Below, piece by piece: positions 7,829 through 23,247 of a stretch of DNA of 64,000 nt. The translations under genes and the position numbers were made by a program. The notes under the pieces are model-generated. The model saw nothing but the letters and a program-made list of their open reading frames with translations. It was not told where the DNA came from and searched no databases. Positions within the stretch are counted from its first letter, which is position 1. Each line of letters opens with the position of its first letter. This DNA comes from Haliea alexandrii (lineage in GTDB: Bacteria > Pseudomonadota > Gammaproteobacteria > Pseudomonadales > Halieaceae), in assembly GCF_003719295.1 (NCBI RefSeq), contig NZ_RFLW01000004.1:62001-126000 (forward strand), in the 5' to 3' direction.

Positions 7829-9031
7829 TCAGGCGACCTCAAACAGCCCGGCTGCGCCCATGCCACCGCCGATACACATGGTGATCACCACGTATTTCAC
7901 ACCGCGACGTTTCCCTTCGATCAGGGCATGGCCGACCATGCGGGCACCGCTCATGCCAAAGGGGTGACCAATGGAAATGGCGCCACCGTTGACATTGAGC
8001 CGGTCGTTATCGATGCCGAGCTTGTCGCGGCAATACAGCACCTGACAGGCGAAAGCCTCGTTCAATTCCCAGAGGCCAATATCATCCATCTTCAGGCCGT
8101 GACGCTGCAGCAGCTTGGGAATGGCGAACACCGGGCCGATGCCCATTTCGTCCGGGCCGCAGCCGGCCACCGCCAGGCCGCGATAGATACCCAGTGGCTG
8201 CAGCCCCTGCTTCGCCGCCAGCGCACCGTCCATCAACACACAGGCTGAGGCGCCATCCGACAGTTGCGAGGCATTGCCCGCCGTGATGAAGCGGCCTTCT
8301 TTCACAAATTGGCCATCCTTGAAAACCGGCTCCAGCCCCTGAAGGCTTTCCAGCGTCGTGGAGGGGCGGTTACCTTCATCTTTCTCCAAAGTGACCGCCT
8401 CGTAGGTGGTCTCCTTGGTTTCTTTATTGAAGACCGCCTTGGTGGAGGCCATCGGCACGATTTCCGCATCGAACAAGCCGGCCTCCTGCGCCGCTGCGGT
8501 ACGCATCTGGCTTTGGAACGAGTACTCGTCCTGCGCCTCGCGAGAAACGCCATAGCGCTCAGAGACGATCTCAGCAGTCTCGATCATCTGGATATACGCC
8601 TGGGGCGAAACCTCCAGCACGGTTTTCGACACGTTGCGGTAGCTGTTCTTGTGCTTGTTCTGCACCAGCGAGATGGACTCCAGCCCACCCGCCACGGCAA
8701 CATCGTACTCGTTGCACATGATGGCCTTGGCGGCTGTGGCTATGGTCATCAACCCGGAGGAACACTGCCGGTCCATGGTCATGCCCGCTGTCGTATCCGG
8801 CAGACCGCCGGCAACACCGCAGAGCCGGCCCAGGTTGTAGGCCTGTGTGCCCTGCTGTGCCGCCGCACCCATGAGGCAGTCATCCACCAAAGCGGGATCA
8901 ATGCCGGCGCGCGCAACCGCCGCGCGTACGACGTGGCCGCCCAGTGCGGGGGCTTCGGTGTCATTGAAAGCGCCGCGGAAGGCTTTGCCGATCGGGGTTC
9001 TGGCGGTGCTGACGATAACTGCGTCTCTCAT
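7829..9031 (-). CDS. Acetyl-CoA acyltransferase (thiolase)
   Basis: Protein of 400 residues with the complete thiolase catalytic set: nucleophile Cys90 in MDRQCSSG, His356 in GHPFGMSG and Cys386 in [12 protein letters not shown], plus the NEAFA motif. It should cleave 3-ketoacyl-CoA to acetyl-CoA (degradative) or run in reverse (biosynthetic); substrate chain length cannot be read from the sequence. The ATG at 9031 has a strong ribosome binding site, AAAGGAG, six bases upstream. It stands alone, separated from the steroid operon upstream by 500 bases of repeats, so it may serve general beta-oxidation or acetoacetyl-CoA metabolism. Confidence 0.9.
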
Positions 9032-9294: not shown

Positions 9295-9374
9295 TCGCTC
9301 ACGGAAGTGTTCAGGGTGAGCACGCACGAATAAACTCAAAGCAATACCACACTAACGAACTGGCAAAATCGGTA

Positions 9375-9488
9375 GGAGGCTGCGGGCGGGCGCGCCGGGC
9401 GGGACCGTAGCAAACATGGATGTTTGCTTCGAGCCTACAGGGACGTATTCACGGCGAGTCCCGGCCGGCGCGCCCGCTCACAGCCTCC
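9375..9488. repeat. Large palindromic element B (nested inverted repeats)
   Basis: Outer arms 9375-9405 and 9458-9488 pair over 31 bases with three mismatches and are very GC-rich. The inner hairpin GCAAACAT-GG-ATGTTTGC at 9410-9427 is perfect. Read on the minus strand, the core follows the same plan as element A: CGCCGTGAA, a TCC-TG segment, GGCT and a hairpin closed by CATCCATG. The outer arms differ in sequence from element A. It begins about 50 bases past the ipdF stop, so it may fold at the 3' end of the steroid operon mRNA. Confidence 0.8.
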
Positions 9489-9538
9489 GGCACGCCCCGC
9501 CATAAACAGGCAGCACGCCACACCCACACCCGCCCCCA

Positions 9539-10330
9539 TCAAGCCCGCTGACTGGAGCAGGAAACAATCTCCCCGGTCATATACCCCGAATAATCCGAGG
9601 CCAGGAACATCATCACATTCGCCACCTCCCACACCTCGGCGGCACGCCCAAAAGCCTCCTTCGCCGCCAGTTCTTCCAGTAACTCCATCGGCGTGGTCTT
9701 CTTCAGGAACTCGTGAAAGGCAATGGAAGGCGACACAGCATTGATGCGCACACCGTGATCCGCCGCCTCGAGCGCGGCACAGCGCGTCAGCGCCATCACA
9801 CCCGCCTTGGCCGCCGCATAGTGGCACTGTTCCTTCTGCGCGCGCCAGCCCAGCACGGAGGCGTTGTTGACGATGACGCCTGCGCCGCGCGGCTGCATCT
9901 TGCGCAGCATGGCTCGAGTCATGCGCATGGTGCCGGTGAGGGTAATATCCAGCACGCGGTTCCATTCGTCGTCGGGCATATCGACAAGCAGGCGCGTACC
10001 CCCCAGTCCGGCGTTATTGATCAACACGTCTACGCCGTCCATGGTCGCCTCCGCGTAATCCACCAGGGCCTGCACATCGCTCTCATCGGTCACATTGGCC
10101 AATTTGCCGTACACCGCCTCAAGGCCGGTGTCCGCTTTCAGCTGCTCGACCGCCTTGGCCAGCCGACCCTCGTGGATGTCGCTGATCATAACGGCCCGGG
10201 CGCCCTCCTCGGCCGCCCGGGTGGCGGCCGCGAAACCGATGCCGGCACCGGCCGCGGCGGTAATCAGAACGGACTTGCCCGCCAGCAGGTTGTGCCCGGC
10301 GACGTAGGGTGGTGGTTCTTTCAATGCCAT
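9539..10330 (-). CDS. ipdF: IpdF-like short-chain dehydrogenase of steroid ring C/D (HIP) degradation
   Basis: SDR of 263 residues. The NAD-binding motif is the unusual TAAAGAGIG (about 24-32), followed by NNAG at 105-108 and the catalytic set Ser158, Tyr171 and Lys175. The stretches NNASVLGWRAQ, HYAAAKAGVMALTRC and VRINAVSPSIA and the C-terminal SSQRA ending match my recollection of mycobacterial IpdF (Rv3559c), which oxidises the 5-hydroxy group of the HIP-CoA intermediate. It is the last gene of the 14-gene operon, 26 bases after a FadE30-like gene, the same pairing as in Mycobacterium. Orthology is inferred, not tested. Confidence 0.82.
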   Translation of the reverse strand: MALKEPPPYVAGHNLLAGKSVLITAAAGAGIGFAAATRAAEEGARAVMISDIHEGRLAKAVEQLKADTGLEAVYGKLANVTDESDVQALVDYAEATMDGVDVLINNAGLGGTRLLVDMPDDEWNRVLDITLTGTMRMTRAMLRKMQPRGAGVIVNNASVLGWRAQKEQCHYAAAKAGVMALTRCAALEAADHGVRINAVSPSIAFHEFLKKTTPMELLEELAAKEAFGRAAEVWEVANVMMFLASDYSGYMTGEIVSCSSQRA

Positions 10331-10356
10331 GCTGTGTTTCTCCTGTAGCCCGCGCG

Positions 10357-11547
10357 CTAGCCGCGGGGTTCGCGGGGCATGCCGAGTGCGCGCTCGGCGA
10401 TGATGTTGCGCTGGATCTGGTTGGTGCCGCCGTAAATGGTGTCGGCGCGCGTGAACAGGTACATGGACTGCAGCCGGCTCAGACCGTAGGGCGCCTCGGG
10501 AACAATCTCGCTTTCTGCGCCCAGCACATCCATGGCCAGCTTGCCCAGGTTGCGGTGCCAGCTGGACCAGTACAGTTTGTAGATCATGGCCTCTTTCTGC
10601 AGGCTGCCGTCGTCACCGCCGCCGGAGAGCATGCGCATGCTGTTGAAGCGCATGATGCGCAGCCCGATGTGAGCCTCGGCAATCCGCTGGCGCAATGCCG
10701 GGTCACATGCAGCGCCGTTGGCTTTGGCAACACGCACGATCTCGTCCAACTCGTTCTGGAACAGCATCTGTTGGCCCAGGGTAGAGACGCCGCGCTCGAA
10801 GCCCAACAGCCCCATGGCGACTTTCCAACCCTCGCCTGGCGCACCGACGATGTCATCGGCATCGCACACCGCATCATCGAAGAACACTTCGTTGAACTCA
10901 CTGGTGCCGGTAAGCTGCTCGATCGGGCGCACAGTTACACCAGGCTGGTCCATAGCGACGAGGAAGAAGCCCAGCCCTTTGTGCGCACTGGAGTCGGGGT
11001 CAGTGCGGGCAATCACGAACACGTACTGAGATTCGTGCGCCAGCGACGTCCACACTTTCTGCCCGCTGATCTGCCACTGCCCAGTGCCTTCATCGAAACG
11101 GGCACGGGTTTTGACGTTGGCGAGGTCGGAGCCTGCCGAGGGCTCGGAGTAACCCTGGCACCAGAATTCGCGGCCTGCACGAATACCCGGGAGGTAGTGC
11201 TCGCGCTGTGCCGCATTGCCGAAAGCGATCAGCGTGGGGCCCATCAGGGTTTCGCCGATGTGCCCCATGCGGCCGGGGCCGCCGGCGCGTGCGTATTCTT
11301 CGTTGAAAATAACCTGCTGTTCAACACTCGCCGCGCGGCCGCCGTATTGCTTGGGCCAGCCAATGCAGGTCCAGCCGCCTTCGGCCAGTTTCTGCTCCCA
11401 GGCTTTGCGCTCCTCGACGAAGGAATGCTCATCCCCCGGGCCACCGCGAAAGCGGATGGGCTCGAATTCGCCACAGAGGTTGTCTGCCAGCCAGTTGGCG
11501 ACTTCTTCGCGGAACAGTTCGTCTTCCGGACTGAAACTCAGTTTCAT
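10357..11547 (-). CDS. fadE30: FadE30-like acyl-CoA dehydrogenase
   Basis: Protein of 396 residues with all acyl-CoA dehydrogenase domains: helical N-terminus (about 1-120), beta domain with FAD/substrate segment WCQGYSEPSAGSDLA, and helical C-terminus. The usual catalytic YEGT motif reads YGGT (Gly373), so the base must lie elsewhere or in a partner subunit. In Mycobacterium, FadE30 sits beside ipdF and introduces a double bond into the propionyl side chain of 5-OH-HIP-CoA; the same neighbour is found here. Its start overlaps the previous acyl-CoA dehydrogenase by four bases, which favours joint assembly. Confidence 0.75.
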   Translation of the reverse strand: MKLSFSPEDELFREEVANWLADNLCGEFEPIRFRGGPGDEHSFVEERKAWEQKLAEGGWTCIGWPKQYGGRAASVEQQVIFNEEYARAGGPGRMGHIGETLMGPTLIAFGNAAQREHYLPGIRAGREFWCQGYSEPSAGSDLANVKTRARFDEGTGQWQISGQKVWTSLAHESQYVFVIARTDPDSSAHKGLGFFLVAMDQPGVTVRPIEQLTGTSEFNEVFFDDAVCDADDIVGAPGEGWKVAMGLLGFERGVSTLGQQMLFQNELDEIVRVAKANGAACDPALRQRIAEAHIGLRIMRFNSMRMLSGGGDDGSLQKEAMIYKLYWSSWHRNLGKLAMDVLGAESEIVPEAPYGLSRLQSMYLFTRADTIYGGTNQIQRNIIAERALGMPREPRG

Positions 11548-12710
11548 GCCTCACCTCCATCCAGCAGCTGTTGCGCAAGCCGCTCCCGGTGCCAGGCCGT
11601 ATCGCCCAGCAGGGTTTCAGCCGATTTGGCGCGTTTGAAATACAGTTGTATGTCGTATTCCGAGGTAATACCCACGCCACCGTGCAATTGAATGCCGCAG
11701 CCCGTATTGAAAAACGCCGCTTCGGAACAGTAGGCTTTGGCGATGCTCGCCGCTTCCGCGAGCCCGCTGCCCAGCGGGCCGCCCGCCAGCGCCTCATCGG
11801 CGATGCAGGCCGCGTAATAAGCTGCCGAGCGCGCCGCCTCCACCTTGAGCATCATGTCGGCGGCCTTGTGCTTGATCGCCTGATAGGACGCAATGGTGCG
11901 GCCGAACTGCACGCGCTCGGTGGTGTAGGCCACGGAGCTGTCCAGCGCCTGCTGCGCCACCCCGACCTGCTCGGCCGCCAGCGCGATGGCGGCGAGGTCC
12001 AGCGTTTTTGCCAGGGCCGGCCAGGCCTGCCCGGCCTCGCCCATGCAGGCGCTGCGCTCAACCTGCACGTTCTCCAACACGATGCGAGCCTGCTTGCGGG
12101 TCTGGTCCATGGTGGGCAACCACTCCCGGCTGATGCCCGCGGTGCTTGCGGGCAAAACGAACAGGCTGACGCCCTCGGTCCCCACACTGCCCGGTGCGCG
12201 GGCGGCTAGCACCAGAATGTCCGCGGTATGGCCATCGAGTACGTAGCGATACTCCCCGTCGAGCACGAAACCGTCGCCTTCGCTGCGACAGGTTGCCTGA
12301 ATGGCCGCCGCATCAGGCCGGCTGCCAGGCGCCATGAAGGCCAGCGTGGCGGTTTTACCGGCGGCAATATCACCCAGATACGCCGTTTGCTGCGCCTCGT
12401 TGCCCGCCACCAGCAACGCGTTGACGGCAAAGCCGACTGTCGAGAGGAACGGTGCGCAGAGCAGGGTACGACCCATTTGCTCCTGCATGGCCGCCAGCTC
12501 GACAAAGCCCAGGCCCAGGCCACCAAACGCCTCGGGGATATGCAGCGCGGGCCACATCAACTCTTCGCTGATCTGCTGCCAGAGCGCATCGCTGTAGCCA
12601 CGCTCCGTTGCCATCGCCTCGCGCACGGCGGCCGCGGTGGACACCTCGGCCAAAAATGCCTCGGCGGTGTCGCGGATCATTTGCTGTTCTTCGGTAAAAC
12701 GAAATTCCAT
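11544..12710 (-). CDS. Acyl-CoA dehydrogenase, probable partner of the FadE30-like subunit
   Basis: I start at the ATG at 12710 (MEFRFTEEQQM), giving 388 residues; the longer frame to 12959 lies inside the upstream SDR. It has the acyl-CoA dehydrogenase fold, with IQLHGGVGITSEYDIQLY near the C-terminus, typical of the smaller or more divergent subunits of steroid-type dehydrogenases. The middle domain is divergent (FMAPGSRPDA where a WALTEP-type motif is usual). The four-base overlap with the next dehydrogenase gene suggests a heteromeric alpha2beta2 enzyme as known for mycobacterial FadE pairs. Exact substrate is unknown; HIP pathway membership follows from the operon. Confidence 0.72.
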   Translation of the reverse strand: MEFRFTEEQQMIRDTAEAFLAEVSTAAAVREAMATERGYSDALWQQISEELMWPALHIPEAFGGLGLGFVELAAMQEQMGRTLLCAPFLSTVGFAVNALLVAGNEAQQTAYLGDIAAGKTATLAFMAPGSRPDAAAIQATCRSEGDGFVLDGEYRYVLDGHTADILVLAARAPGSVGTEGVSLFVLPASTAGISREWLPTMDQTRKQARIVLENVQVERSACMGEAGQAWPALAKTLDLAAIALAAEQVGVAQQALDSSVAYTTERVQFGRTIASYQAIKHKAADMMLKVEAARSAAYYAACIADEALAGGPLGSGLAEAASIAKAYCSEAAFFNTGCGIQLHGGVGITSEYDIQLYFKRAKSAETLLGDTAWHRERLAQQLLDGGEA

Positions 12711-12720
12711 GCGCCCTGCC

Positions 12721-13608
12721 TCAGGTGCCGTAGACTTTTTGCGCCGGCACTTCGCGCGCCAGCAACTGCTGCACTGCACCGGCCACTTCCGCCGGCTGCC
12801 AGCGATCGCCCTTGTCCACCGGCTCGGTGGTACGCCAGCCATCGGCGATGGATATCCGCCCTCCCTCAGCCTCGAATACACGACCTGTGACCGCTGCTGA
12901 CTCGGCGGAGACCAGGTAAGCAAACAGCGAGGAGACGTTCTCCGGTGCCCAGTAGTCAAAACTGCCGTCCTCGGGCTTGGCCATGCGCTGCGCCATTTCT
13001 TCCACGGCGGTGGTCATGCCAGTACGCGCGGCGGGCGCCACGGCATTGGCCGTCACGCCGTAGCGTGCCAGCTCGGCCGCCTGGTTCAAGGTAAGGGCTG
13101 CGATGCCGGCCTTGGCGGCGGCGTAGTTCGATTGGCCAATGGAGCCCTGCAGTCCTGCACCGGAGGTCGTGTTGATGATGCGTGCATCCACCGCCACACC
13201 TTCCTTGGACTGGCCGCGCCAGTAGTGCACCGCGTGGGAGCTGATACAGAAATGCCCTTTGAGGTGCACCGCCATGATGGTGTCCCACTCCGCTTCCGTC
13301 ATGGAGGCGAACATGCGGTCACGGTTAACGCCGGCATTATTGATGACCGCGTGCAGGTCGCCGAAGGCATCTATGGCCTGCTTGACCGCGTTCAGGCTGT
13401 CGTCGTAATGGGTGATGTCCGAGGTGTTCACCACGGCTTCACCGCCGGCCTTACGGATGTCGTCCACCACCGCCTGCGCCGCCACTTCGTTGATATCGTT
13501 GACAATGACTCTGGCGCCCTCACTGGCAAGCACCCGTGCGTGCGCTGCCCCCAGGCCGCCACCTGCACCGGTGATGATTACCACGCGCCCTTCACATATT
13601 CCGCTCAT
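12721..13608 (-). CDS. Short-chain dehydrogenase of the HIP operon (Rv3548c-like)
   Basis: I start at the ATG at 13608 (MSGICEGRVVIITGAG), one base from the thiolase stop, giving 295 residues, longer than a typical SDR. The TGAGGGLG nucleotide motif lies at 13-20, NNAG at 90-93, and catalytic Ser149, Tyr162 and Lys166 are present. The long C-terminal tail (DKGDRW, ending KVYGT) resembles my memory of Rv3548c, an SDR of the mycobacterial KstR2 regulon. It probably oxidises a hydroxyacyl-CoA intermediate made by ring D or C opening. Exact step not assignable. Confidence 0.7.
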   Translation of the reverse strand: MSGICEGRVVIITGAGGGLGAAHARVLASEGARVIVNDINEVAAQAVVDDIRKAGGEAVVNTSDITHYDDSLNAVKQAIDAFGDLHAVINNAGVNRDRMFASMTEAEWDTIMAVHLKGHFCISSHAVHYWRGQSKEGVAVDARIINTTSGAGLQGSIGQSNYAAAKAGIAALTLNQAAELARYGVTANAVAPAARTGMTTAVEEMAQRMAKPEDGSFDYWAPENVSSLFAYLVSAESAAVTGRVFEAEGGRISIADGWRTTEPVDKGDRWQPAEVAGAVQQLLAREVPAQKVYGT

Positions 13609-13609
13609 A

Positions 13610-14758
13610 TCACAACCTCTCGATAATGGTGACGTTCGCCTGACCACCGCCTTCGCACATGGTTTGCAGGCCGTAGCGACCACCGCTGCGCTCCAGTTCG
13701 TGCAGCAGGGTGGTCATCAATTTCGTGCCGGTAGCACCCAGTGGGTGTCCCAGGGCAATCGCGCCGCCGTTGACATTGGTCTTGGCCGGGTCGTAGTCGG
13801 TATCTTTCAGCCAGGCCATCGCCACCGAGGCGAAAGCTTCGTTGATTTCCACCAGGTCGATATCCGCCAGCCGCATACCGGCGCGCTTCAGTGCGTACTC
13901 GGTCGCAGGAATGGGTGCCGTCAACATCCAGATGGGGTCCGCCGCGCGCACGCTCATGTGCGCGATGCGTGCCCGCGGTGTGAGGTTGTAGCGCTTGAGA
14001 GCCGCCTCCGAGACAATCAACATGGCTGACGAGGCATCACAGGTCTGGCTGGACACAGCCGCCGTGATGGTGCCGCCCTCCTGCAATGGCTGCAGTTCCG
14101 CCATTTTCTCCATGGTGGTCTGGCGCGGTGTCTCGTCCATCTCCACACCGGCGAGGGGCGCGATCTCCCGGGCGAAGCGCCCTTCACTGATCGCCTGTAG
14201 CGCTCGCGTATGGGACTGCAGCGCAAAGGCCTCCATGTCGCTGCGGCTGAACCCCCATTTGTCTGCGATCATCTGCGCAGAATTGAACTGCGACACCGGC
14301 ACCGTGCCATAGCGCGCCACCCAGCCTTCGCTACCGGAAAAGGGGTCGGAGAAACCCAGAGGCTCGGCGGCCAGCATGGCCGAGGAAATGGGGATCTGCG
14401 TCATGGTCTGCACGCCGCCGGCAATCACCACATCGTTGACCCCGGCCATGATCGCCTGGGCAGCAAAATGCACCGCCTGCTGTGACGAGCCGCACTGACG
14501 GTCTATGGTGGTGCCGGGCACGGCCTCATCCAGCCCCGCCGCCAACCAGCAAGTGCGGGCAATGTCGCCCGCCAGCGGGCCGATGGTGTCCACGCAACCG
14601 AACATCACGTCATCGTAGTCGGCATCCGGAATGCCGTTGCGCTCCACAAGGGTCTTCAATACGTGGGCACCCAGGTCTGCGCCGTGCACGCCGGCGAGCC
14701 CTCCCTTGCGGCGGCCCGTGGGGCTGCGCACTGCATCAACAATATAGGCATCCGCCAT
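13610..14758 (-). CDS. fadA6: FadA6-like thiolase of ring C/D degradation
   Basis: Thiolase of 382 residues: nucleophile Cys89 in IDRQCGSSQQA, His338 in GHPLGATG, Cys368 in TMCEGGGQANVT and NEAFA. The DRQCGSSQQA segment, the QIPISSAM segment and the C-terminal CEGGG ending with TIIERL agree with FadA6 (Rv3556c) as I remember it. FadA6 performs thiolysis of a beta-keto CoA intermediate late in HIP breakdown. It differs clearly from the stand-alone thiolase at 7829-9031, so the cell has a dedicated steroid thiolase. Neighbouring genes are 1 and 21 bases away. Confidence 0.8.
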   Translation of the reverse strand: MADAYIVDAVRSPTGRRKGGLAGVHGADLGAHVLKTLVERNGIPDADYDDVMFGCVDTIGPLAGDIARTCWLAAGLDEAVPGTTIDRQCGSSQQAVHFAAQAIMAGVNDVVIAGGVQTMTQIPISSAMLAAEPLGFSDPFSGSEGWVARYGTVPVSQFNSAQMIADKWGFSRSDMEAFALQSHTRALQAISEGRFAREIAPLAGVEMDETPRQTTMEKMAELQPLQEGGTITAAVSSQTCDASSAMLIVSEAALKRYNLTPRARIAHMSVRAADPIWMLTAPIPATEYALKRAGMRLADIDLVEINEAFASVAMAWLKDTDYDPAKTNVNGGAIALGHPLGATGTKLMTTLLHELERSGGRYGLQTMCEGGGQANVTIIERL

Positions 14759-14779
14759 GATCTGTGTCCTCGTCTGTAT

Positions 14780-15826
14780 TTATTGGAAGGTGGCGCCGGC
14801 GCCCAGCGCCGCGCCGTCCGCAAATATCACCGCCGCCACTTGCTGCTTGTGCCAGCCGGCATCGCCCCAGGTGTTGGCCAGGGCCCACGCCTTCTTCATG
14901 AAGATGTGCAGGTCCACCTCCCAGGTGTAGCCCATGGCGCCATGTACCTGAATACTGTTCTTGGCCGCCAGATTGGCCGCTTCGCACGCCATCAGCTTGG
15001 CCTGCGCCACCGCCAGGGCAGCACCTGCGGCGTCTTCGGCCACGGCATACGCCGCGCGGTGGACCGGCGCCTTGGCGTATTCCAGCCGCACGGCCACATT
15101 GGCCATGTGGTGCTTCACGGCCTGGAATGAACCGATAGCCTTGCCGAATTGTTTGCGCTCGGCGGTGTACTGTACCGACAGATCTATCATGCGCTGCGCC
15201 AGGCCCAGTGCCTGGGCCGCACATCCCAGCGCACCGCGATTCAGGCTGGCCGAGCGCAGCGCGCTGGCCCGCTCGCCATCGGCGATCGGCGCGGCTCCCG
15301 CTGGCACCGTCACCGTATACAGGCGGCGGCCGGGGTCGATACTCTCGCTGCGCTCGCAACTGAACTGCCCCTGCTCCAGCGCAAACCACTGTCCCTCGCG
15401 CTCGAGCAACAGGAGGTCGGCGACATGCGCGTCTTCCACCATCAGGTTCTGTTCGACCGCAGCAATGATGCGCGCCTCACCCGTTGCAGCCAGGGGCAAC
15501 CAGCGCGCCGCCAGTTCACCGCCGATGTCCTGCAACAGGGGCACGGCGACCAGCGCGTGATTGACCAGGGGTTCGGCAAGCGCCACATAGCCGCATTCCT
15601 GGGCCAGCAATACAAAGTCCACGGCGTCCATGCCGAGGCCACCGTGCTCTTCGGGCACCGTGATCCCGGTGAGGCCGAGTTCGGCGAACTGCTGCCAGAG
15701 TGCAGGGTCGCGGCCCGTGTCTGTTTCCCAACCGGCGCGCAGCCGCTCGGGGGAGATTTCGTTGACCAGAAAGCCGCGGACGGAATCCTGAAACAGCAAT
15801 TGGTCTTCGCTGAAAGTGAAATCCAT
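14780..15826 (-). CDS. Acyl-CoA dehydrogenase, small subunit type (FadE32/33-like)
   Basis: Start at the ATG at 15826 (MDFTFSEDQLL), two bases after the stop of the upstream dehydrogenase; 348 residues, shorter than standard acyl-CoA dehydrogenases. The frame continues upstream to 16117, but only inside the neighbour. It retains the N-terminal helical domain and a C-terminal domain with NSIQVHGAMGYTWEVDLH, while the middle beta domain is reduced. Size and pairing with the 387-residue subunit match the mycobacterial FadE31 with FadE32 or FadE33 arrangement, thought to oxidise ring-opened intermediates. Which step is catalysed cannot be told from sequence. Confidence 0.72.
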   Translation of the reverse strand: MDFTFSEDQLLFQDSVRGFLVNEISPERLRAGWETDTGRDPALWQQFAELGLTGITVPEEHGGLGMDAVDFVLLAQECGYVALAEPLVNHALVAVPLLQDIGGELAARWLPLAATGEARIIAAVEQNLMVEDAHVADLLLLEREGQWFALEQGQFSCERSESIDPGRRLYTVTVPAGAAPIADGERASALRSASLNRGALGCAAQALGLAQRMIDLSVQYTAERKQFGKAIGSFQAVKHHMANVAVRLEYAKAPVHRAAYAVAEDAAGAALAVAQAKLMACEAANLAAKNSIQVHGAMGYTWEVDLHIFMKKAWALANTWGDAGWHKQQVAAVIFADGAALGAGATFQ

Positions 15827-15828
15827 GA

Positions 15829-16992
15829 TTACCTCGGCATCCCGAGCATACGCTCGGCAATAATGTTGCGTTGAATCTCGTTGGTCCCGGCGTAGATGGG
15901 CCCTGACTGCGAGAACAGCCAACCGTCCAGCCAGGTGCCAACACCCTCCGCAGCCGGCGCATGCGGCAGCAGTTCGGCGCGCGCGCCGAGAATGCTCATG
16001 GCGGTAGCGTGCATGTTCTGATCCAGCTCTGACCAGAAAATCTTGTTGGTGGAGGACTCCGCGCCGATCTTGCCGCCCTGACTCAGGCGACAGGCGGTTT
16101 GGTAGGTGCTCAGGCAATAACTCTCGGCATCCAGGTAGGCGCGCATGACCGCGTCGCGGATCTGTGGGTCGTGACTGGCGCTCGCTTCATTGGCGCGGTA
16201 CAGCTCCACCAGGCGACGCGCGGTTTCCTGGAAGCGCGCCGGTGAGCGCAGCATCAGCCCGCGTTCGAAGCCGGCGGTGGCCATGGCCACCGCCCAGCCG
16301 GCACCGTCGTCACCCAGGCGATTGCTGACATCCACCTCCACATTGTCGAAGAAGATTTCGGCAAAGCCCGGCAGACCATCCAGTTGCGGAATGGGGCGCA
16401 CGGTAATACCCGGGGTATTCAGGGGCACCAGGATGAAGGTCAGCCCGCGATGGCGTTCCGAGTCCGGGTCGGTACGGAACATGCCGAACAACCAGTCAGC
16501 CCACACGGCGCGCGTCGACCAGGTTTTCTGGCCGTTGATAATGTACTTGTCGCCCTGAAGCTGTGCCGTGGAGCGAATGGCCGCCATGTCGGAACCGGCG
16601 CCGGGTTCAGACCAGCCCTGTGCCCAGACGTCACGCCCTTCCGCCATGGCCGGCAGAAAGCGGGCTTTCTGCTCTTCGGTGCCGTACTCCATCAAGGTGG
16701 GACCGAGCAGAAAAATACCGTTCTGGTTCACCCGCAGCGGCGCCTTGGCGCGGTAGTACTCTTCCTCGAATATCAGCCACTCAATGAGGTCACAACCACG
16801 CCCGCCCAGTGCTTCCGGCCAGGTGACCATCCCCCAGCGACCCTGGTTCAGGGTGGCTTCCCACTCGCGGTGCTGCTGAAAGCCTTCCTCGGTGTCGAAG
16901 GTCTGCAGCGTTTGCGCGGGCACATTGGCTTGCAGCCAGGAGCGAATCTCGGCGCGAAAGGCCTGTTGCTGTTCAGTAAATGCCAGTTGCAT
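15829..16992 (-). CDS. Acyl-CoA dehydrogenase, large subunit type (FadE31-like)
   Basis: Protein of 387 residues with the full acyl-CoA dehydrogenase architecture: the beta-domain motif WAQGWSEPGAGSDMA (FAD and substrate contacts) and a C-terminal YAGTNEIQRNIIAERMLG. The residue that is the catalytic glutamate in YEGT enzymes is Ala368. It is followed at two bases by a 348-residue small dehydrogenase, so the two likely form one heteromeric enzyme. A 15-base gap separates it from the enoyl-CoA hydratase gene upstream. Assignment to HIP degradation is from context and from similarity to FadE31. Confidence 0.72.
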   Translation of the reverse strand: MQLAFTEQQQAFRAEIRSWLQANVPAQTLQTFDTEEGFQQHREWEATLNQGRWGMVTWPEALGGRGCDLIEWLIFEEEYYRAKAPLRVNQNGIFLLGPTLMEYGTEEQKARFLPAMAEGRDVWAQGWSEPGAGSDMAAIRSTAQLQGDKYIINGQKTWSTRAVWADWLFGMFRTDPDSERHRGLTFILVPLNTPGITVRPIPQLDGLPGFAEIFFDNVEVDVSNRLGDDGAGWAVAMATAGFERGLMLRSPARFQETARRLVELYRANEASASHDPQIRDAVMRAYLDAESYCLSTYQTACRLSQGGKIGAESSTNKIFWSELDQNMHATAMSILGARAELLPHAPAAEGVGTWLDGWLFSQSGPIYAGTNEIQRNIIAERMLGMPR

Positions 16993-17007
16993 GTGTTAGT
17001 CCTGCGT

Positions 17008-17760
17008 TCAGAATTTGGCGTCGCGTTTTTCGATAAAGGCATCACGGGACTCCTGGGAGTCGCCCACGGTGTAGGCCTCCAGCGTGAATCCCTGTTCCCA
17101 GCGGTATTTGTCTTCGAGGTTGCCGTCTTCGATACCGGTGAGGGCCTCCTTGGCCAGCTTGACCATGGCCGGGGATTTGCTGGCGATACTGGCGGCAATC
17201 GCGCGCGCCGTGGGCAACAACTCCTCGCGGCTGACAACCTTCTCGATGGCGCCCAGCCGGTAGGCTTCCTGCGCATCGATGAATTCACCGGTGAAGTACA
17301 TGTAGCGCACTTTCTGCACCGGGAACATGCGCTGCAGATGCGCACCGCCGCCCATGGCGCCGCGGTCGATTTCGGGCACACCAAAGCGCGCGCAGTCAGA
17401 TGCGACCAGAATGTCGGCGGCGCCCGCCATGCCGATACCGCCCCCGAGCACAAAGCCGTGCAGGGCGATGATGACCGGCTTGGGGTTGCGGTGGATGGCA
17501 CGGAAGGTTTCGTAGTTGCCCTTGTTCACATCGACAATCCGCGTTGATTCGGCGGCGAGTTCCTTGATGTCTACGCCGGCGCAGAAGCCACGGCCCTCGG
17601 CGGCGATCAAAATGACCCGCACGGCGTCGTCGCGGCCCAGCGCGTCGATTTCATCGGCGATGGCAAACCAGCCGGCGCTGTCGAAAGCGTTTACGGGCGG
17701 CTTGTCGAGGATCATCTCGGCGATGCCGTCCTCGATGGTGGTGCGAAAGGGTTTACTCAT
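17008..17760 (-). CDS. echA20: EchA20-like enoyl-CoA hydratase family hydrolase
   Basis: Crotonase-fold protein of 250 residues. The two oxyanion-hole segments are GRGFCAGVDIKEL (56-68) and GFVLGGGIGMAG (102-113), and an acidic residue lies at Glu130 in FGVPEIDRGAMGG. In Mycobacterium, EchA20 (about the same size) opens ring D of the bicyclic CoA ester by hydrolysis rather than hydrating a double bond. Here the gene sits next to ipdC, ipdB and ipdA just as in the mycobacterial locus, which supports the same role. A general enoyl-CoA hydratase remains the alternative. Confidence 0.78.
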   Translation of the reverse strand: MSKPFRTTIEDGIAEMILDKPPVNAFDSAGWFAIADEIDALGRDDAVRVILIAAEGRGFCAGVDIKELAAESTRIVDVNKGNYETFRAIHRNPKPVIIALHGFVLGGGIGMAGAADILVASDCARFGVPEIDRGAMGGGAHLQRMFPVQKVRYMYFTGEFIDAQEAYRLGAIEKVVSREELLPTARAIAASIASKSPAMVKLAKEALTGIEDGNLEDKYRWEQGFTLEAYTVGDSQESRDAFIEKRDAKF

Positions 17761-17787
17761 GGTTGTTCTACCTGTCGGTGCAGTGAA

Positions 17788-18861
17788 TTACGGGTTGACG
17801 GCGGCACGCGCGGCGAGGGCCTGCAAGCGGCTTTCGGCTTCCTCAACGATGGACTGGATCAGCTCCTCGCAGGTGAGCAGGGTGTCGATCACCCCGGCCA
17901 CCTGGCCGCTGGGCAACACCCCGCGCGCCGGCTGCCCATCGACCATGGCCTTCTGGATGATCATCGGGGCATTAGCAGACATGATCGCCTGCGCGGCGGT
18001 CATGTCGTCACTGCGGCTCATGGCAATGGCGGACTTGAGCAGGCCGACCACACTGGCGCCGGTGTACTTGCGAAAGGCCAGGCCGTTGCGCATGGCAATG
18101 ATCAGCTTGCGCAGCTTGGAAGCACGCTCCAGCTCCGTCAGCAGTTCGTTCATGATCATGCGCTGCGGCATACCGTCCATGGCGCGCGAAACAATGATGT
18201 CCGCCGGATTCTTGCAATCCAGGTAGCGCTGTTTGGTAGCGTCCGGCACCGGCGACTCCCGGGTCAGCAGGAAACGCGTGCCCATGGCGACCCCGTCGGC
18301 GCCCCAGGCAAGCGCGGCAACCAGCCCGCGACCGTCCTTGAACCCCCCTGCCGCGACTACCGGCACCTGGGTGCCCACTGCATCCACCACCTGCGGTATC
18401 AGCAGCGTGGTCGGCACCGCACCGGTGTGGCCTCCACCCTCGCCACCCTGCACCGTGACTGCGTCAGCCCCCAGCTCCACCGCTTTCACGGCATGTTTGG
18501 GCAAACCCACCGTCGGCATGCAGATCACGCCAGCATCCTTCAGCTTGCGAATCATCTCCGGGCCCGGTGAGCGAGAATAGCTCACCGCACGCACACCGTG
18601 GCGGATTACCATGTCGATGATGTCTGCCGCATTGGGCTGGTACATGTGAAAGTTGACGCCGAAGGGGCGATCAGTCAGCGCTTTAACCTGCAGGATGTCG
18701 CGCTCCATCTCCTCGGGCGGGATGGTTGCGCCGGCGAGAAAACCGAAGCCGCCGGCGTTGCAGCTGCCGGCGACCAGCCGCGGATCCGCCACCCAGCCCA
18801 TCGCGGTTTGCACGATGGGGTAGCGGCAGCCGAGCAGTTCTGTCAGTCGTGTTGTCAGCAT
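17788..18861 (-). CDS. ipdC: IpdC-like flavoprotein (nitronate monooxygenase fold)
   Basis: FMN-type TIM barrel of 357 residues: N-terminal LGCRYPIVQTAMGWV, the phosphate-binding segments GGEGGGHTG and VVAAGGFKDGRG, and ALAWGADGVAMGTRFL. Such proteins are usually annotated as nitronate monooxygenase or 2-nitropropane dioxygenase. In HIP pathways IpdC (Rv3553, similar length) is instead an oxidoreductase acting on the bicyclic CoA ester before ring opening. Placement between the EchA20-like and IpdAB genes favours IpdC. Flavin binding is inferred from the fold. Confidence 0.8.
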   Translation of the reverse strand: MLTTRLTELLGCRYPIVQTAMGWVADPRLVAGSCNAGGFGFLAGATIPPEEMERDILQVKALTDRPFGVNFHMYQPNAADIIDMVIRHGVRAVSYSRSPGPEMIRKLKDAGVICMPTVGLPKHAVKAVELGADAVTVQGGEGGGHTGAVPTTLLIPQVVDAVGTQVPVVAAGGFKDGRGLVAALAWGADGVAMGTRFLLTRESPVPDATKQRYLDCKNPADIIVSRAMDGMPQRMIMNELLTELERASKLRKLIIAMRNGLAFRKYTGASVVGLLKSAIAMSRSDDMTAAQAIMSANAPMIIQKAMVDGQPARGVLPSGQVAGVIDTLLTCEELIQSIVEEAESRLQALAARAAVNP

Positions 18862-18869
18862 AGTGAGCC

Positions 18870-19673
18870 TCAGGCCCGGATACCGGGCGGGTTGTCGGCA
18901 ATTTGCGCGGCGCGCTGGTTGTGCGGGTCAAGGCCGGCAATGATCGCCAGTTGTTCGTCAGTCGGCGCTGGCGTGGTCGGCACATCCGCCGGCACCGCAA
19001 TCGGGTAACCGGTGTTGTCCTGCACTTCCTCCAGCGTAACCCCCGGGTGCAGGGAGAGCAGGCGAATCTGATGCTCCGGGCCACCAAAATCCATCACACA
19101 CAGGTTGGTCACGACACGGCGGATATCGACATCGTCCAGCGAACGACCGCGCGGCAACCGGGCGGGGTTATAACCGATGGAGGAGACAAAATCACACTCG
19201 CCGTCCATGAAGATCCGGGTGTTGTGGCCGGGCACGAAGAAGCTGTTGGCGTGGCAAATCGAGTTGCCGGGGAAACCGCGTGCGCCGAGCATCATCACTT
19301 TGGGCTGCTGGTAGGTGCCCCCCAGCGCCGAGGTGTTGGTCTGGCCAAAGCGGTCGATCTGGGTGGGGCCCAGCATCGCGTGACGCTTGCCGCTCCACAC
19401 ATTGTCGAAGATACGCGAAAAGCCCATCCAGGTTTCGTTGGCCTGCTGAAAATCAGCGGGGCGCTTGCCAATGGGGTTGGGCTCGCTGAGCAGGAAGGCC
19501 TCCGAATCCGTCATCATCAGGTCCGGGTTGAAGGTTTTCATGGCGAGGCTGGCGGCCAGTCGCGGTATGACCCCAATGCCGGTTGCCAGTACTTCACCGT
19601 CGTGACGAAAGGCCTCGGCGGCGGCAACAATGCACAGCTCGGCGAGGGTGTAGTCGGTTGCTACAGTTGACAT
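18870..19673 (-). CDS. ipdB: IpdB-like subunit of the ring C hydrolase (CoA-transferase fold)
   Basis: Protein of 267 residues in the class I CoA-transferase beta-subunit family, with N-terminal DYTLAELCIVAAAEAF, PNPIGKRPADF and a LGGTYQQPKVMMLG segment. IpdAB proteins look like CoA transferases, but the mycobacterial pair hydrolyses the last carbocycle (ring C) of the steroid nucleus. The gene lies 21 bases after ipdA and 8 bases before ipdC. True CoA transfer cannot be excluded by eye. Confidence 0.8.
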   Translation of the reverse strand: MSTVATDYTLAELCIVAAAEAFRHDGEVLATGIGVIPRLAASLAMKTFNPDLMMTDSEAFLLSEPNPIGKRPADFQQANETWMGFSRIFDNVWSGKRHAMLGPTQIDRFGQTNTSALGGTYQQPKVMMLGARGFPGNSICHANSFFVPGHNTRIFMDGECDFVSSIGYNPARLPRGRSLDDVDIRRVVTNLCVMDFGGPEHQIRLLSLHPGVTLEEVQDNTGYPIAVPADVPTTPAPTDEQLAIIAGLDPHNQRAAQIADNPPGIRA

Positions 19674-19694
19674 GCAGTAATCTCCCTGGGCGTA

Positions 19695-20567
19695 TCAGTA
19701 GGTGGGCAACGCAATGGCGCGGATGGCGTCGAGCCCACCCACATTGCGCTGGTATTCGGCCTCGTCGGCCCCCAGGTATTTCTCCAGGTAACCCGCAATG
19801 CCACCGTCTTTGGCCGAGGCGTTGTAGGCCTTGAAATGCGCTACATCAAAGCCGTACAGCGGGTTGCAGGACGTCGGGTGGGCGCCGCCAGGAATTTCCA
19901 CGATGGCACTGGTCGCAGCGCGCTCCCAGAACACCTCCCGCGCCCGCGCCGGATCGGCAAAAAACGACGTATCAACCAGTTCATCACAGGATACGATGGT
20001 GTTTTTCGCCGCGCGCGCAAACCAGTCGTCAAGGTAGTGGTCAGGACCCGCGATCTGGCACACACCACGAAAATCCGCGCGGTCCACGTGAATCAGGGAC
20101 ACATCGAGGTTCAGTGCCGGCATGGCCACCCACTCCTTGTCGTCGTAGGGGCTGTCGATCAGTTTGATATCCGGATTCTGGTTGATGACATCGGTACCCA
20201 GGCCGACCGCGGTGGGGATGAAAGGCAGCCCCCAGGCAGCGGCTCGCAGGCCCAGCAACATCATCCCTTCATCGACTTCCATAACCTCGATGGCACCGCT
20301 CTGCCGCGCCTGGCGGAAGTAAGGTTCCAACGGAATGAAATCCAGTGAAACAAACGCAAACACCAGTTTCTTGACCTTGCCCGCGGCACAGAGCATGCCC
20401 ACATCAGCACCGCCATAAGCGACCACCGTGAGGTCTTTCACATCCGAGCGGAGGATTTCGCGCACCAGTGCCATTGGCTTGCGCCGCGGGCCCCAGCCAC
20501 CAATCCCCACGGTCATTCCGTCTTCGATTTGTGCCACCGCATCGCGGGCACTGAGCCGTTTATCCAT
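19695..20567 (-). CDS. ipdA: IpdA-like subunit of the ring C hydrolase (CoA-transferase fold)
   Basis: Protein of 290 residues in the CoA-transferase alpha-subunit family: the glycine-rich start GMTVGIGGWGPRRKPMALV, a central EVMEVDEGMMLLGLRAAA segment (95-112) and SLIHVDRAD. The mycobacterial IpdA catalytic residue is a glutamate near position 105; Glu97 or Glu100 here is the likely equivalent, but I cannot align it with certainty. With IpdB it should open ring C of the steroid-derived CoA ester. It is the first enzyme gene after the two Lrp-type regulators, 11 bases downstream. Confidence 0.8.
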   Translation of the reverse strand: MDKRLSARDAVAQIEDGMTVGIGGWGPRRKPMALVREILRSDVKDLTVVAYGGADVGMLCAAGKVKKLVFAFVSLDFIPLEPYFRQARQSGAIEVMEVDEGMMLLGLRAAAWGLPFIPTAVGLGTDVINQNPDIKLIDSPYDDKEWVAMPALNLDVSLIHVDRADFRGVCQIAGPDHYLDDWFARAAKNTIVSCDELVDTSFFADPARAREVFWERAATSAIVEIPGGAHPTSCNPLYGFDVAHFKAYNASAKDGGIAGYLEKYLGADEAEYQRNVGGLDAIRAIALPTY

Positions 20568-20578
20568 GTTGTATTCCT

Positions 20579-21046
20579 TCAGCTGACGATCCGCGCCATG
20601 CGGTAATCGTGTTTGACAAAATTGACACCGAGCGTGCTTTCCGTACGCCGTACACCCGGTATGCTGCTGATGCGCTGGTGCACGAACTCGGCGAGATGTT
20701 CGTTACTGCGCACCATGGTGATGGCCAACAAATCGGAGCGGCCGAGCATCTCGCCGACAAACCCGAGCTCGCCAATGGCAGAAAGTGCCCGCGCTACTGC
20801 CTGCACCTGATGACTGCGCTCCACCTCAATCCAGATGTAGGCCAGTGCACCGTTGCGAAAGCGATCGATATTGGTGACCGCCGTAATGCGAATCTGGCGC
20901 TCCTCCTCCATACGCTTGACCCGCGCCCGCACGGTGCCTTCGGTCACCCCGAGGTCAGTCGCAATCTGCCGGTTGCTGATACGCGCATCCTCCGACAGCC
21001 GTGCCACTATCTGCCGGTCGATGTCGTCCAGACGGCGGCGCGTCAT
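20579..21046 (-). CDS. Lrp/AsnC family transcriptional regulator (second of a tandem pair)
   Basis: Protein of 155 residues: N-terminal winged helix-turn-helix (LDDIDRQIVARLSEDARISNRQIATDLGVTE in outline, residues about 6-37, then VRARVKRMEEERQI), linker, and C-terminal RAM domain, the oligomerising and ligand-binding part. Its start overlaps the stop of the first Lrp-like gene by four bases. Both lie inside the HIP operon between the FadD3-like ligase and ipdA, so they are the obvious candidates to sense a steroid-CoA or its breakdown product. Ligand and operator are unknown. Confidence 0.85.
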   Translation of the reverse strand: MTRRRLDDIDRQIVARLSEDARISNRQIATDLGVTEGTVRARVKRMEEERQIRITAVTNIDRFRNGALAYIWIEVERSHQVQAVARALSAIGELGFVGEMLGRSDLLAITMVRSNEHLAEFVHQRISSIPGVRRTESTLGVNFVKHDYRMARIVS

Positions 21047-21549
21047 GCGCTGGCACCCCGGTCGAACGGCACCCAGTCGGGCTGGTTTTTCAGCACATTG
21101 ACCGCCAGCGCCGGGGTAAGACGACGCACACCCGGCATGGCGGCAATGCGCTCATGCAACAGGCGGTGCAGCGCCACCTGGTCTTCCGCCACCATCAGTA
21201 TTTCAATGTCCTGGGCACCCACCACCACATTGACCGAAAACACTTCGGGCACAGCCGCCAGCTCGCGTGCCACCTCCTCCGGTGAGCGGCTCTCCACCTG
21301 CACGCCAATCGCCAGCAACATGCCAAAACCGGCGGCCTCGATGTCGGTGACTGCCACCACACGCATGGTTCTGGATTCCTCCAGCCGCCGCACCCGCGAA
21401 CGCACCGTCGCCTCGGTGAGGCCGAGCTCGCGTGCGATGGAGCGAAAGGGCAACCGGCCGTCCGCGCGCAGCAGGGCGATGATGGCGTGGTCCGTTTCGT
21501 CCAGCTCTATCTGCGAGACGCGCTCCACCCGTTGTTCCTGCCCGGCCAC
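21043..21549 (-). CDS. Lrp/AsnC family transcriptional regulator (first of a tandem pair)
   Basis: Protein of 168 residues: winged helix-turn-helix at about 15-65 (ELDETDHAIIALLRADG, then LTEATVRSRVRRLEE) and a RAM domain. It is seven bases after the ligase gene and overlaps the next Lrp-like gene by four bases. The two proteins differ throughout, so this is an old pair, perhaps a hetero-oligomer, not a recent duplicate. The known regulator of the homologous mycobacterial genes is the TetR-type KstR2, which is absent here. Confidence 0.85.
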   Translation of the reverse strand: MAGQEQRVERVSQIELDETDHAIIALLRADGRLPFRSIARELGLTEATVRSRVRRLEESRTMRVVAVTDIEAAGFGMLLAIGVQVESRSPEEVARELAAVPEVFSVNVVVGAQDIEILMVAEDQVALHRLLHERIAAMPGVRRLTPALAVNVLKNQPDWVPFDRGASA

Positions 21550-21556
21550 GTCCGCG

Positions 21557-23152
21557 CTAGCCCCGTTCCGCCGCCATACGCTGGCGCAACTCGTTCTTCA
21601 GTACTTTGCCACCGGCATTCATGGGCAGCTCCGGCACCAGGCGCACCACACGCGGCACTTTGTAATTCGCCATATGCTCGCGCGACCAGGCGATAACGGC
21701 CGCCTCGTCCAGCTGCGCACCGGCGGCCGGCACAATCCACGCGCAGGCAACTTCGCCCATGCGCTCATCTGGAACGCCTATTACCGCTGCCCGGGTCACA
21801 CCGGGCATGCTGTGCAGGCTGTTCTCGATTTCCGCAGGGTAGCAATTGAAGCCCCCCACAATGAACATATCCTTGATGCGGTCGGTGATGCGCACGTAGC
21901 CGTCCTCATCCATCACGCCAACATCCCCGGTTTTCAGCCAGCCATCCGCGGTAATCGTGCGTGCGGTCTCCTCGGGGTTGTCGAGGTAGCACTGCATGAC
22001 GTTGTAGCCGCGGCACCAGATTTCGCCTTCAGTACCGGCCGCAACAGTGGCGCCATTGGCGTCGACACATTTCATCTCCACGCCCGCCATCGCACGCCCG
22101 GAGCTGTGTGAAATGCGCTCTGCGCTGTCTTCGGGACGACAGATGGAAATCACGCCACAGGACTCGGTCAGCCCATAGGCGGTCACCACTACCTGGAAAC
22201 CCAGCTCGCTGCGCATCTTCTCGATCAACGACACCGGCACGGGCGCCGCCCCGGTTACCGCCAGGCGCAGACTGGACAGATCGTATTCCCCACGCTGCGG
22301 GTGGCTCAGCAGCGACTGGTAAATGGTCGGTGGACCGGGGATGACCGAGACGCGGTCACGGTGGATCTGGCTGAGGACCGCATCGAGATCGAACTGCTTG
22401 ACCGGCAGCATTCTGGCACCGCAAATGGTGGCTGCGAGCCAACCCGCCTTGTACCCGAAGGAATGAAAAAACGGGTTTATAATCAGATAGTTATCGTCAC
22501 TGCTCAGGCCGACTGTCGCACTCCAGGTGGAGAAGGCGCGAATATTCTGCCCATGGCTGGTGACCACGCCCTTGGGCTGCCCGGTGGTGCCCGACGTAAA
22601 CAGGATATCCAGGGTGTCATCCGGGGTCAGCTGGCTGGCGCGCGCCTCGACGGCCGCAGGATCCACAGCGTCGCCGCGGGCGAGGAATTCCGACCATGCC
22701 TGTGTGCCAGCGCTCTCGCCATCAAACAATACCGTCCCCTGCAGGTCAGGCAAATCCTCGTGCGCCACCATGGCTGGATAGCACATGCCAAGGAACTCAC
22801 CTACCGTGAACAGCCAGCGCGCACCGCTGCGGCGGAGGATAAAACCGGCTTCGGCGCCCTTCAAGCGGGTATTCAGGGGCACCAGCACGCCACCTATGGT
22901 CTGCGCGCCCATGGCCGCGACTATCCACTGCCACATGTTTGGCGCCCAGATGGCGATCCGTTCTCCATGCGCAAGCCCAGCTGCCAGAAACGCCGCAGCG
23001 GCTCGCAGGCGCGCCGCATCGAGCTCGGCGTAAGTAAGGGAAACGGGGCCGTCACTGATTGCCACCCGCTCGGGCAGCGCCCTCGCGGTAGCCGCGACAA
23101 CCTGCGGTAGTGTGCGCTGATCTGACTCGGGAGTGGGCATGGCAAAAGGCAC
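21557..23152 (-). CDS. fadD3: FadD3-like AMP-forming acyl-CoA ligase (HIP-CoA ligase)
   Basis: Protein of 531 residues with adenylate-forming enzyme motifs: FTSGTTGQPKGV, AYGLTESCG, WLKTGDVGVMDEDGY, the IKDMFIVGGFNCYPAEIE hinge and the C-terminal lysine in GGKVLKNEL. In the first position of a HIP operon it should activate the steroid-derived bicyclic propanoate (HIP) with ATP and CoA, as FadD3 does. The frame opens with GTG at 23152; an ATG four codons on (23140) is equally possible, and neither has a clear ribosome binding site. A plausible promoter lies 22 bases upstream. Confidence 0.78.
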   Translation of the reverse strand: MPFAMPTPESDQRTLPQVVAATARALPERVAISDGPVSLTYAELDAARLRAAAAFLAAGLAHGERIAIWAPNMWQWIVAAMGAQTIGGVLVPLNTRLKGAEAGFILRRSGARWLFTVGEFLGMCYPAMVAHEDLPDLQGTVLFDGESAGTQAWSEFLARGDAVDPAAVEARASQLTPDDTLDILFTSGTTGQPKGVVTSHGQNIRAFSTWSATVGLSSDDNYLIINPFFHSFGYKAGWLAATICGARMLPVKQFDLDAVLSQIHRDRVSVIPGPPTIYQSLLSHPQRGEYDLSSLRLAVTGAAPVPVSLIEKMRSELGFQVVVTAYGLTESCGVISICRPEDSAERISHSSGRAMAGVEMKCVDANGATVAAGTEGEIWCRGYNVMQCYLDNPEETARTITADGWLKTGDVGVMDEDGYVRITDRIKDMFIVGGFNCYPAEIENSLHSMPGVTRAAVIGVPDERMGEVACAWIVPAAGAQLDEAAVIAWSREHMANYKVPRVVRLVPELPMNAGGKVLKNELRQRMAAERG

Positions 23153-23173: not shown

Positions 23174-23202
23174 ATACTAGTCAGCGTTTCGCGGTTTTAC
23201 AA
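23174..23202 (-). promoter_or_regulatory. Candidate promoter of the HIP operon
   Basis: On the minus strand a -35-like TTGTAA (23202-23197) and a -10-like TAGTAT (23179-23174) are separated by exactly 17 bases; each matches the sigma-70 consensus at four of six positions. The predicted start is about 15 bases before the GTG of the ligase gene. An AT-rich stretch with AATT-ACG-AATT lies just upstream of the -35 (about 23203-23220) and could be bound by the Lrp/AsnC pair. Eye-based prediction only. Confidence 0.4.
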
Positions 23203-23247
23203 CCGGAATTCGTAATTATTTGCCCAGCAAACTACGCATAGTGAAGC

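Follow-up and report, generated by a model that had tools for sequence, protein, structure and literature searches.

A steroid C/D-ring degradation operon in Haliea alexandrii and the tandem Lrp/AsnC pair proposed to control it

The stretch of the Haliea alexandrii genome considered here (the window; 64,000 nucleotides, C7:62001-126000 of a genome of 3.96 Mb in 12 contigs) carries on its minus strand, from 23152 to 9539, fourteen open reading frames (ORFs) with several overlaps and a largest gap of 27 nt (17760/17788), in agreement with the compact one-strand operon described in an earlier note on this DNA. Twelve of the fourteen genes, arranged as in the Comamonas scd cluster, are those of steroid C/D-ring (HIP) breakdown, and these the earlier note had named; the remaining two, which it had missed, are overlapping Lrp/AsnC regulator genes, here named lrpB and lrpA. 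We propose that the HIP operon is under the control of its own tandem LrpB-LrpA pair, which would bind an inverted repeat with a 16-nt spacer (the N16 site) that also heads a methylmalonyl-CoA operon, and we consider this reading probable. It offers a candidate HIP regulator where we found none described, together with a predicted link to propionyl-CoA disposal; what it specifies is the pair of regulators, the DNA site that they probably use, a promoter geometry and a candidate regulon of two operons.

The LrpB-LrpA pair and the site upstream of fadD3

The features at the head of the operon are as follows.

23209..23238, minus strand: inverted repeat TGCGTAG-N16-TTACGAA, the proposed LrpB-LrpA operator, from the comparison of upstream regions
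23174..23202, minus strand: predicted promoter TTGTAA - 17 nt - TAGTAT, starting 6 nt past the operator, in fixed phasing
21557..23140, minus strand: fadD3, HIP-CoA ligase (NF005801, 724 bits, cut-off 657); the start is ATG 23140 or GTG 23152
21043..21549, minus strand: lrpB, Lrp/AsnC regulator (LrpB group of the tree)
20579..21046, minus strand: lrpA, Lrp/AsnC regulator with a 4-nt overlap with lrpB (LrpA clade of the tree, support 97/94)

LrpB and LrpA each contain HTH_AsnC and AsnC ligand-binding domains over the Pfam cut-offs. Within LrpA the helix-turn-helix (HTH) ranks with the most conserved parts, and the LrpA of the window shares 99% identity with its counterpart in Haliea salexigens DSM 19537. 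An LrpA alignment scanned against a collection of 84,980 species gave 296 relatives, and the counts of pairs and loci that follow refer to the best 80 of these 296. LrpB adjoins LrpA in 79 of the 80 loci, the exception (L165) being a 3.8-kb contig, and ipdA or ipdB lies within 10 kb of LrpA in 68 of them, against a background frequency for IpdB of 8 in 398 sampled genomes of the phylum, that of H. alexandrii included. The two regulator genes often overlap and form a single ORF, a natural fusion, in seven of the 79 pairs. All LrpA rows fall into one clade of the tree, and LrpB and LrpA most likely work together as a heteromer. When plasmids were searched with LrpA and LrpB, tandem pairs of sphingomonads ranked at the top; the 21 best plasmid LrpA rows are all from sphingomonads, and 19 of these 21 rows come from plasmids that also carry an IpdB at least 54% identical (three of them were read in detail).

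The 300 bases upstream of fadD3 were compared in the H. alexandrii genome and in the 65 of the 80 LrpA loci that have them (n = 66). The motif T[T/G]CGTA[A/G]-N16-[C/T]TACG[A/C]A occurs with at most one mismatch in 62 of these 66 regions, with CGTA and TACG showing little or no variation across the 62 N16 rows. If spacings of 8-23 are allowed, 65 of the 66 regions contain a match, the best being N16 in 60, N23 in four and N17 in one; at spacings of 15-17 with at most one mismatch, the best match qualifies in 61 of 66, against 1 of 1320 letter-shuffled regions. The 66 regions are not independent, because many come from close relatives. The N23 spacing occurs in the Zhongshania loci L150, L153 and L155, of which L150 also has an overlapping N16 site with one mismatch, and the Zhongshania locus L152 has no match. 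A TTG...TANNAT-like promoter stands at a fixed distance from the repeat, with TT at +6 in 54 of the 62 rows and TA...T at +29 in 54 of the 62. A generic promoter scan upstream of fadD3 gave nothing above shuffled sequence and did not flag TTGTAA/TAGTAT. Two other palindromes were tried as operators and rejected, since TTTGC-TGG-GCAAA is present in only two of the 66 regions and CGGTT-GTAA-AACCG in only four.

The midpoint of the inverted repeat falls near -57 relative to the predicted start, a position that would make activation likelier than simple repression. In the mechanism that we infer from the sequence, the LrpB-LrpA heteromer would bind the motif about 57 bp upstream of that start, and the likely signal would be a CoA thioester or another HIP intermediate.

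A second site and the candidate regulon

The H. alexandrii genome contains exactly two perfect sites, that of the window at 23209-23238 and one at C5:695595-695624. The latter precedes an mmdA-like gene for the beta subunit of an acyl-CoA carboxylase (below cut-off) and a biotin-carboxylase-like gene, in an operon that also encodes methylmalonyl-CoA epimerase, mutase and MeaB, all three over cut-off, and on its other side it precedes a divergent pabB. A search of 120 genomes of the family gave 67 perfect sites, spread over 53 genomes, and a backward-pattern control gave 14. Of the 67, 47 lie 2.1-3.3 kb upstream of lrpA, and one genome (G444 C126:8483 and 9454) has two near-identical perfect copies 971 bp apart upstream of this gene. 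The H. alexandrii site and 18 more were read among the other 20, with that of G482 left unread, and 13 were found between pccB-like and pabB-like genes, namely in H. alexandrii, in all seven other Haliea and in five other genera. Across the 120 genomes, LrpA and a perfect site occur together in 50, LrpA alone in eight, the site alone in three and neither in 59 (Fisher 1.8e-21, uncorrected for phylogeny, with most LrpA loci coming from related, syntenic Halieaceae), while the backward pattern shows no association with LrpA (both 7, LrpA only 51, pattern only 7, neither 55).

Since the same site stands before the methylmalonyl-CoA operon, ring breakdown and propionyl-CoA disposal would switch together. 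Propionyl-CoA is a product of HIP degradation in a proposed pathway (PMC5380842), and the link fits the transcriptomic data on Novosphingobium tardaugens, where a methylmalonyl pathway cluster is reported to be induced during growth on estradiol (PMC7793797).

The same site is found beyond the family. Seventeen loci, mostly alphaproteobacterial or unclassified and amounting to 421,540 bases (two overlap by 5 kb on pNL2), were picked for the pair or for the steroid cluster on the same replicon. Searched with up to one mismatch, they gave 19 matches to the motif at N16 and between 0 and 2 at each other spacing from 6 to 30. In P6W, S. herbicidovorans, PP1Y, KACC 22771 and TomTYG65 it falls in the divergent promoter that separates tesB-ipdAB from hsaA, and in pNL2 in the promoter that separates hsaA from the SDR-tesB-ipdAB genes (SDR, short-chain dehydrogenase/reductase). 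The sphingomonads (N. aromaticivorans pNL2, Novosphingobium P6W and S. herbicidovorans) resemble Haliea in their enzyme families, in having a tandem Lrp pair, encoded on the plasmid that carries the cluster, and in the N16 site (up to one mismatch) at the promoter that divides hsaA from the tesB-ipdAB side, but their pair lies about 9-18 kb from ipdB, outside the operon, and their clusters contain tesB and scdN and, in pNL2, scdD.

A more specific form of the proposal, to which we give somewhat better than even chances, is that LrpB-LrpA would be an obligate heteromeric activator with a HIP-derived CoA thioester as its signal and would be the equivalent of KstR2 in Proteobacteria, and that a single split operator shared by Alpha- and Gammaproteobacteria would join steroid-ring degradation to propionyl-CoA disposal through the methylmalonyl-CoA pathway. 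The pair and its site would provide a tag by which steroid degraders could be searched for in metagenomes, and a candidate part for a sensor.

Several observations weigh against the proposed regulation. At the thresholds used, 12 of the 80 LrpA loci have no ipdA or ipdB within 10 kb; these include L146, which is on a short contig and showed part of an IpdA in a second search, and four Zhongshania loci with fadD3-lrpBA only, and most of the others adjoin hsa-type, KstD-like, ketosteroid isomerase (KSI) or other sphingomonad steroid-cluster genes. Zhongshania keeps fadD3-lrpBA apart from ipdAB in five of six loci; in L150, L152, L153 and L155 the fadD3-lrpB-lrpA genes stand without ipdAB in the retrieved flank, and in L170 the order is intact. 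LrpB rows group together weakly in the tree (74/92). Moreover, H. alexandrii has a fused double-Lrp paralogue (C8:48189-49130; L098 9190-10131) downstream of a TonB-dependent receptor gene, the N half of which groups with LrpB and the C half with LrpA, on long branches. As to the site, with one mismatch allowed the H. alexandrii genome has four matches against six for the backward pattern, neither of its perfect sites is at the hsa locus, eight LrpA-bearing genomes have no perfect site, and six of the 18 further sites retrieved are located elsewhere. The site-regulator association, besides the relatedness of the loci behind it, was computed for LrpA alone. Many of the alphaproteobacterial sites carry one mismatch, and the pair is present without a site in L167, L171, L172 and L178, as well as on ES2-1 p1, where none lies within 30 kb.

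Alternative explanations and known systems

The alternative that survives best, although we think it unlikely, takes the HIP operon as ordinary, gives its Lrp genes no part in its control and assigns the site to a different regulator, such as a TetR or IclR protein encoded elsewhere. Both lrpBA and the site could merely travel with the operon, and TetR genes flank some sphingomonad clusters, for example on ES2-1 p3; among the 14 genes of the Haliea operon, which were those searched, there is no TetR/KstR2-type gene. However, the site is absent from eleven ipd loci that lack the pair in the stretch compared, although some of these genomes possibly carry it elsewhere (they are seven relatives, two closely similar Vibrio plasmids, a Burkholderia and ES2-1 p3, with three cut by contig ends). 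The site also lies upstream of lrpB itself in L173, L174, L176 and L177, and it recurs at a second, unlinked promoter in pair-bearing genomes.

It is very improbable that the pair is instead a siroheme/haem decarboxylase-like enzyme (AhbAB, NirDL), a group whose members are also tandem or fused and have a similar paired Lrp-like fold. An AlphaFold model of one natural fusion (pLDDT 80.2, pTM 0.73) does have NirDL (4czc, 4ch7), a fused Lrp-like pair, as its top Foldseek matches spanning both halves, and LrpB matches the AhbB model, but at 26.9 bits against a cut-off of 125. The NirDL-like HTH model falls just below its cut-off, whereas HTH_AsnC reaches 58 bits, and, unlike AhbAB/NirDL, LrpB-LrpA keeps a canonical HTH, strongly conserved in LrpA, and is accompanied by a conserved DNA site. 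An operon for some alicyclic CoA ester other than HIP is equally hard to credit, for although pimeloyl-CoA dehydrogenase models are the top match of three of the four acyl-CoA dehydrogenases, these scores are all far below cut-off, and the clear identity of IpdA, IpdB and FadD3, the scd gene order, the ring-A/B candidates in the same genome and the growth of a Halieaceae isolate on cholesterol (PMC5790920) all speak for a steroid.

The earlier note had seen in the operon nearly the full KstR2 regulon, a comparison that holds for the enzymes and fails elsewhere, as there is no TetR gene in the operon, two Lrp/AsnC genes are present and the ScdN and ScdD genes are missing. The KstR2 regulon of Mycobacterium and Rhodococcus has in common with the Haliea operon FadD3, IpdA/B/C/F, EchA20, FadA6 and SDRs (PMC5380842) and a set of acyl-CoA dehydrogenases, the full list of which is in part general background, but it is controlled by the TetR repressor KstR2, in contrast to a tandem Lrp/AsnC pair with a different conserved site. 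According to a review, homologues of KstR1 and KstR2 are absent from bile-acid-degrading Proteobacteria (PMC8399759), and we propose that LrpB-LrpA may be the proteobacterial counterpart of KstR2. The tesB-tesR (scd) cluster of Comamonas testosteroni has the same order scdL1L2-K-Y-M1M2-F-E-C1C2-G (PMC13101464) but differs in that tesB, scdN, scdD and tesR are absent from the Haliea operon, which has fadD3 and lrpBA at its head. TesR-like genes are reported only from C. testosteroni, and no regulator is reported near the N. tardaugens cluster (PMC6895838). The bile-acid cluster of Sphingobium Chol11 includes two contiguous Lrp/AsnC genes, which are discussed there under amino acid metabolism and with no site given (PMC12882949), so that we liken them to LrpB-LrpA by description only. 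This is the sole mention of such a pair that we found, and the literature searched contained no description of an operator for Lrp/AsnC proteins in steroid degradation.

Operon enzymes and other steroid genes

The remaining operon genes and one thiolase gene beyond them are listed below, with refined starts for gene 3 (12710), gene 4 (13608) and gene 6 (15826). The models NF005925, NF005865 and NF005880, the titles of which are themselves generic, we take to be those of EchA20, FadA6 and IpdF.

19695..20567, minus strand: ipdA (scdL1), putative COCHEA-CoA hydrolase alpha subunit (6co6_A 235.6 bits, next family 99.3)
18870..19673, minus strand: ipdB (scdL2), putative COCHEA-CoA hydrolase beta subunit (6co6_B 203.1 bits, next family 58.2)
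17788..18861, minus strand: ipdC (scdK), FMN enoyl-CoA reductase family (nitronate monooxygenase Pfam model 249.9 bits; 55% identity to the pNL2 cluster gene)
17008..17760, minus strand: echA20 (scdY), putative ring-D hydrolase (NF005925 377 bits, cut-off 260)
15829..16992, minus strand: acyl-CoA dehydrogenase, scdM1-type (PDB 4x28_A best at 180 bits, Tcur3483 (6wy9/6wy8) next at 168; gene order)
14780..15826, minus strand: acyl-CoA dehydrogenase, scdM2-type (top NCBIfam model IpdE2, 150 bits, below the cut-off of 450; gene order)
13610..14758, minus strand: fadA6 (scdF), thiolase (NF005865 696 bits, cut-off 591)
12721..13608, minus strand: SDR oxidoreductase, scdE-type (NF005861 414 bits, cut-off 373)
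11544..12710, minus strand: acyl-CoA dehydrogenase, scdC1-type (Pfam; gene order)
10357..11547, minus strand: acyl-CoA dehydrogenase, scdC2-type (Pfam; gene order)
9539..10330, minus strand: ipdF (scdG), putative 5-OH HIC-CoA dehydrogenase (NF005880 440 bits, cut-off 336)
7829..9031, minus strand: thiolase, likely pathway member with its own transcript (68% and 65% identity to the pNL2 and Burkholderia cluster thiolases; 507-nt gap from ipdF)

The reading of the locus as a steroid C/D-ring (HIP) operon, put forward in the earlier note, is supported by homology to characterized enzymes. IpdA and IpdB score 236 and 203 bits against the solved IpdAB structure 6co6 and 99 and 58 bits against glutaconate CoA-transferase, no other CoA-transferase reaching half of the IpdAB score, and FadD3 exceeds its equivalog cut-off. 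IpdC is a FabK/nitronate-monooxygenase-like protein. In the pathway thus predicted, FadD3 would activate HIP, the dehydrogenases, SDRs and FadA6 would carry out beta-oxidation, IpdC, IpdF and EchA20 would open ring D, and IpdAB would open ring C.

Preceded by fadD3 and the two Lrp/AsnC genes, the gene order from scdL1 to scdG is conserved in comparison with the pNL2 and Burkholderia clusters, with scdN, scdD and tesB outside the operon in Haliea. Of 38 genomes in the organism's own group, 26 have an IpdB (H. alexandrii included, one match weak), and the locus was retrieved from 24 relatives with a strong match. In 17 of the 24, lrpB and lrpA lie between fadD3 and ipdA and the same gene order holds over the available stretch, which is why the operon is not a chance arrangement. 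The other seven have no pair at that place and keep most of the enzyme genes; FadD3 has moved, ScdN is present or the contig is cut, the last in three cases. The enzyme set itself is ordinary, Halieaceae having already been predicted and isolated as steroid degraders: steroid degradation was predicted for the OM60 clade (PMC4810484), and the Halieaceae isolate BC51 grew on cholesterol (PMC5790920). The assembly BC5_1 (L138), which from its name is probably that isolate, carries the operon with the Lrp pair.

The operon is also present in a record labelled as a Klebsiella pneumoniae metagenome-assembled genome (L164), probably a mislabelled bin. The Vibrio alfacsensis plasmids pVa1 and pYa108 (L044, L045) have a HIP cluster of the order tesB-ipdAB-scdN-ipdC-echA20-..., with an IpdB 75% identical to that of the window; a survey of 2016 is reported to have found steroid genes in none of 186 Vibrio genomes (PMC4810484).

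The earlier note found no ring-A/B or side-chain genes in the window, a statement that holds for the 14 operon proteins and eight others covered by our NCBIfam scan, which are not all of its ORFs. Its conclusion that the locus is physically separate from the upper-pathway genes agrees with our finding of ring-A/B candidates at distant loci unlinked to the HIP operon. C1:1748559-1753256 encodes HsaA-, HsaD-, HsaE-, HsaG- and HsaF-type proteins in the order hsaA-D-E-G-F, of which the G and F types exceed generic cut-offs, HsaA reaches 350 of 450 bits, HsaE 400.5 of 408.8 and the weak HsaD type 173 of 462 against a biphenyl model. HsaC-like dioxygenase genes are at C5:251005 (258 of 450 bits) and C6:59414 (203 of 450 bits), and seven KshA_C proteins exceed cut-off. 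Judged by these candidates, several of which score below cut-off, the genome appears not to lack ring-A/B genes. An ScdD-like gene lies at C1:1575286 with 66% identity, the best match to ScdN in this genome has 34% identity and is not a clear orthologue, and a motif scan of the retrieved loci for KstD-like FAD proteins gave no match. Within C1:1566000-1585999 (L084), the scdD-like gene lies by genes of a FAD-binding dehydrogenase, a lipid-transfer-type thiolase and an MlaE-type permease; this is a possible second steroid cluster, with the FAD-binding protein as a KstD candidate only.

The thiolase gene at 7829-9031, which the earlier note did not include, belongs to such clusters elsewhere. 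The 507-nt gap between it and ipdF (9032-9538) contains repeated and inverted GC-rich segments and a plus-strand terminator-like hairpin, and the thiolase transcript may be separated there. A tRNA-Ala called by ARAGORN at 14267-14341 lies inside fadA6 on the same strand and is most likely a false positive. On the upstream side of the operon and on the same strand, the gene at 23286-24917 scores 834 bits (cut-off 822) against a 3-(methylthio)propionyl-CoA ligase model, which suggests that breakdown products of dimethylsulfoniopropionate (DMSP) may be used.

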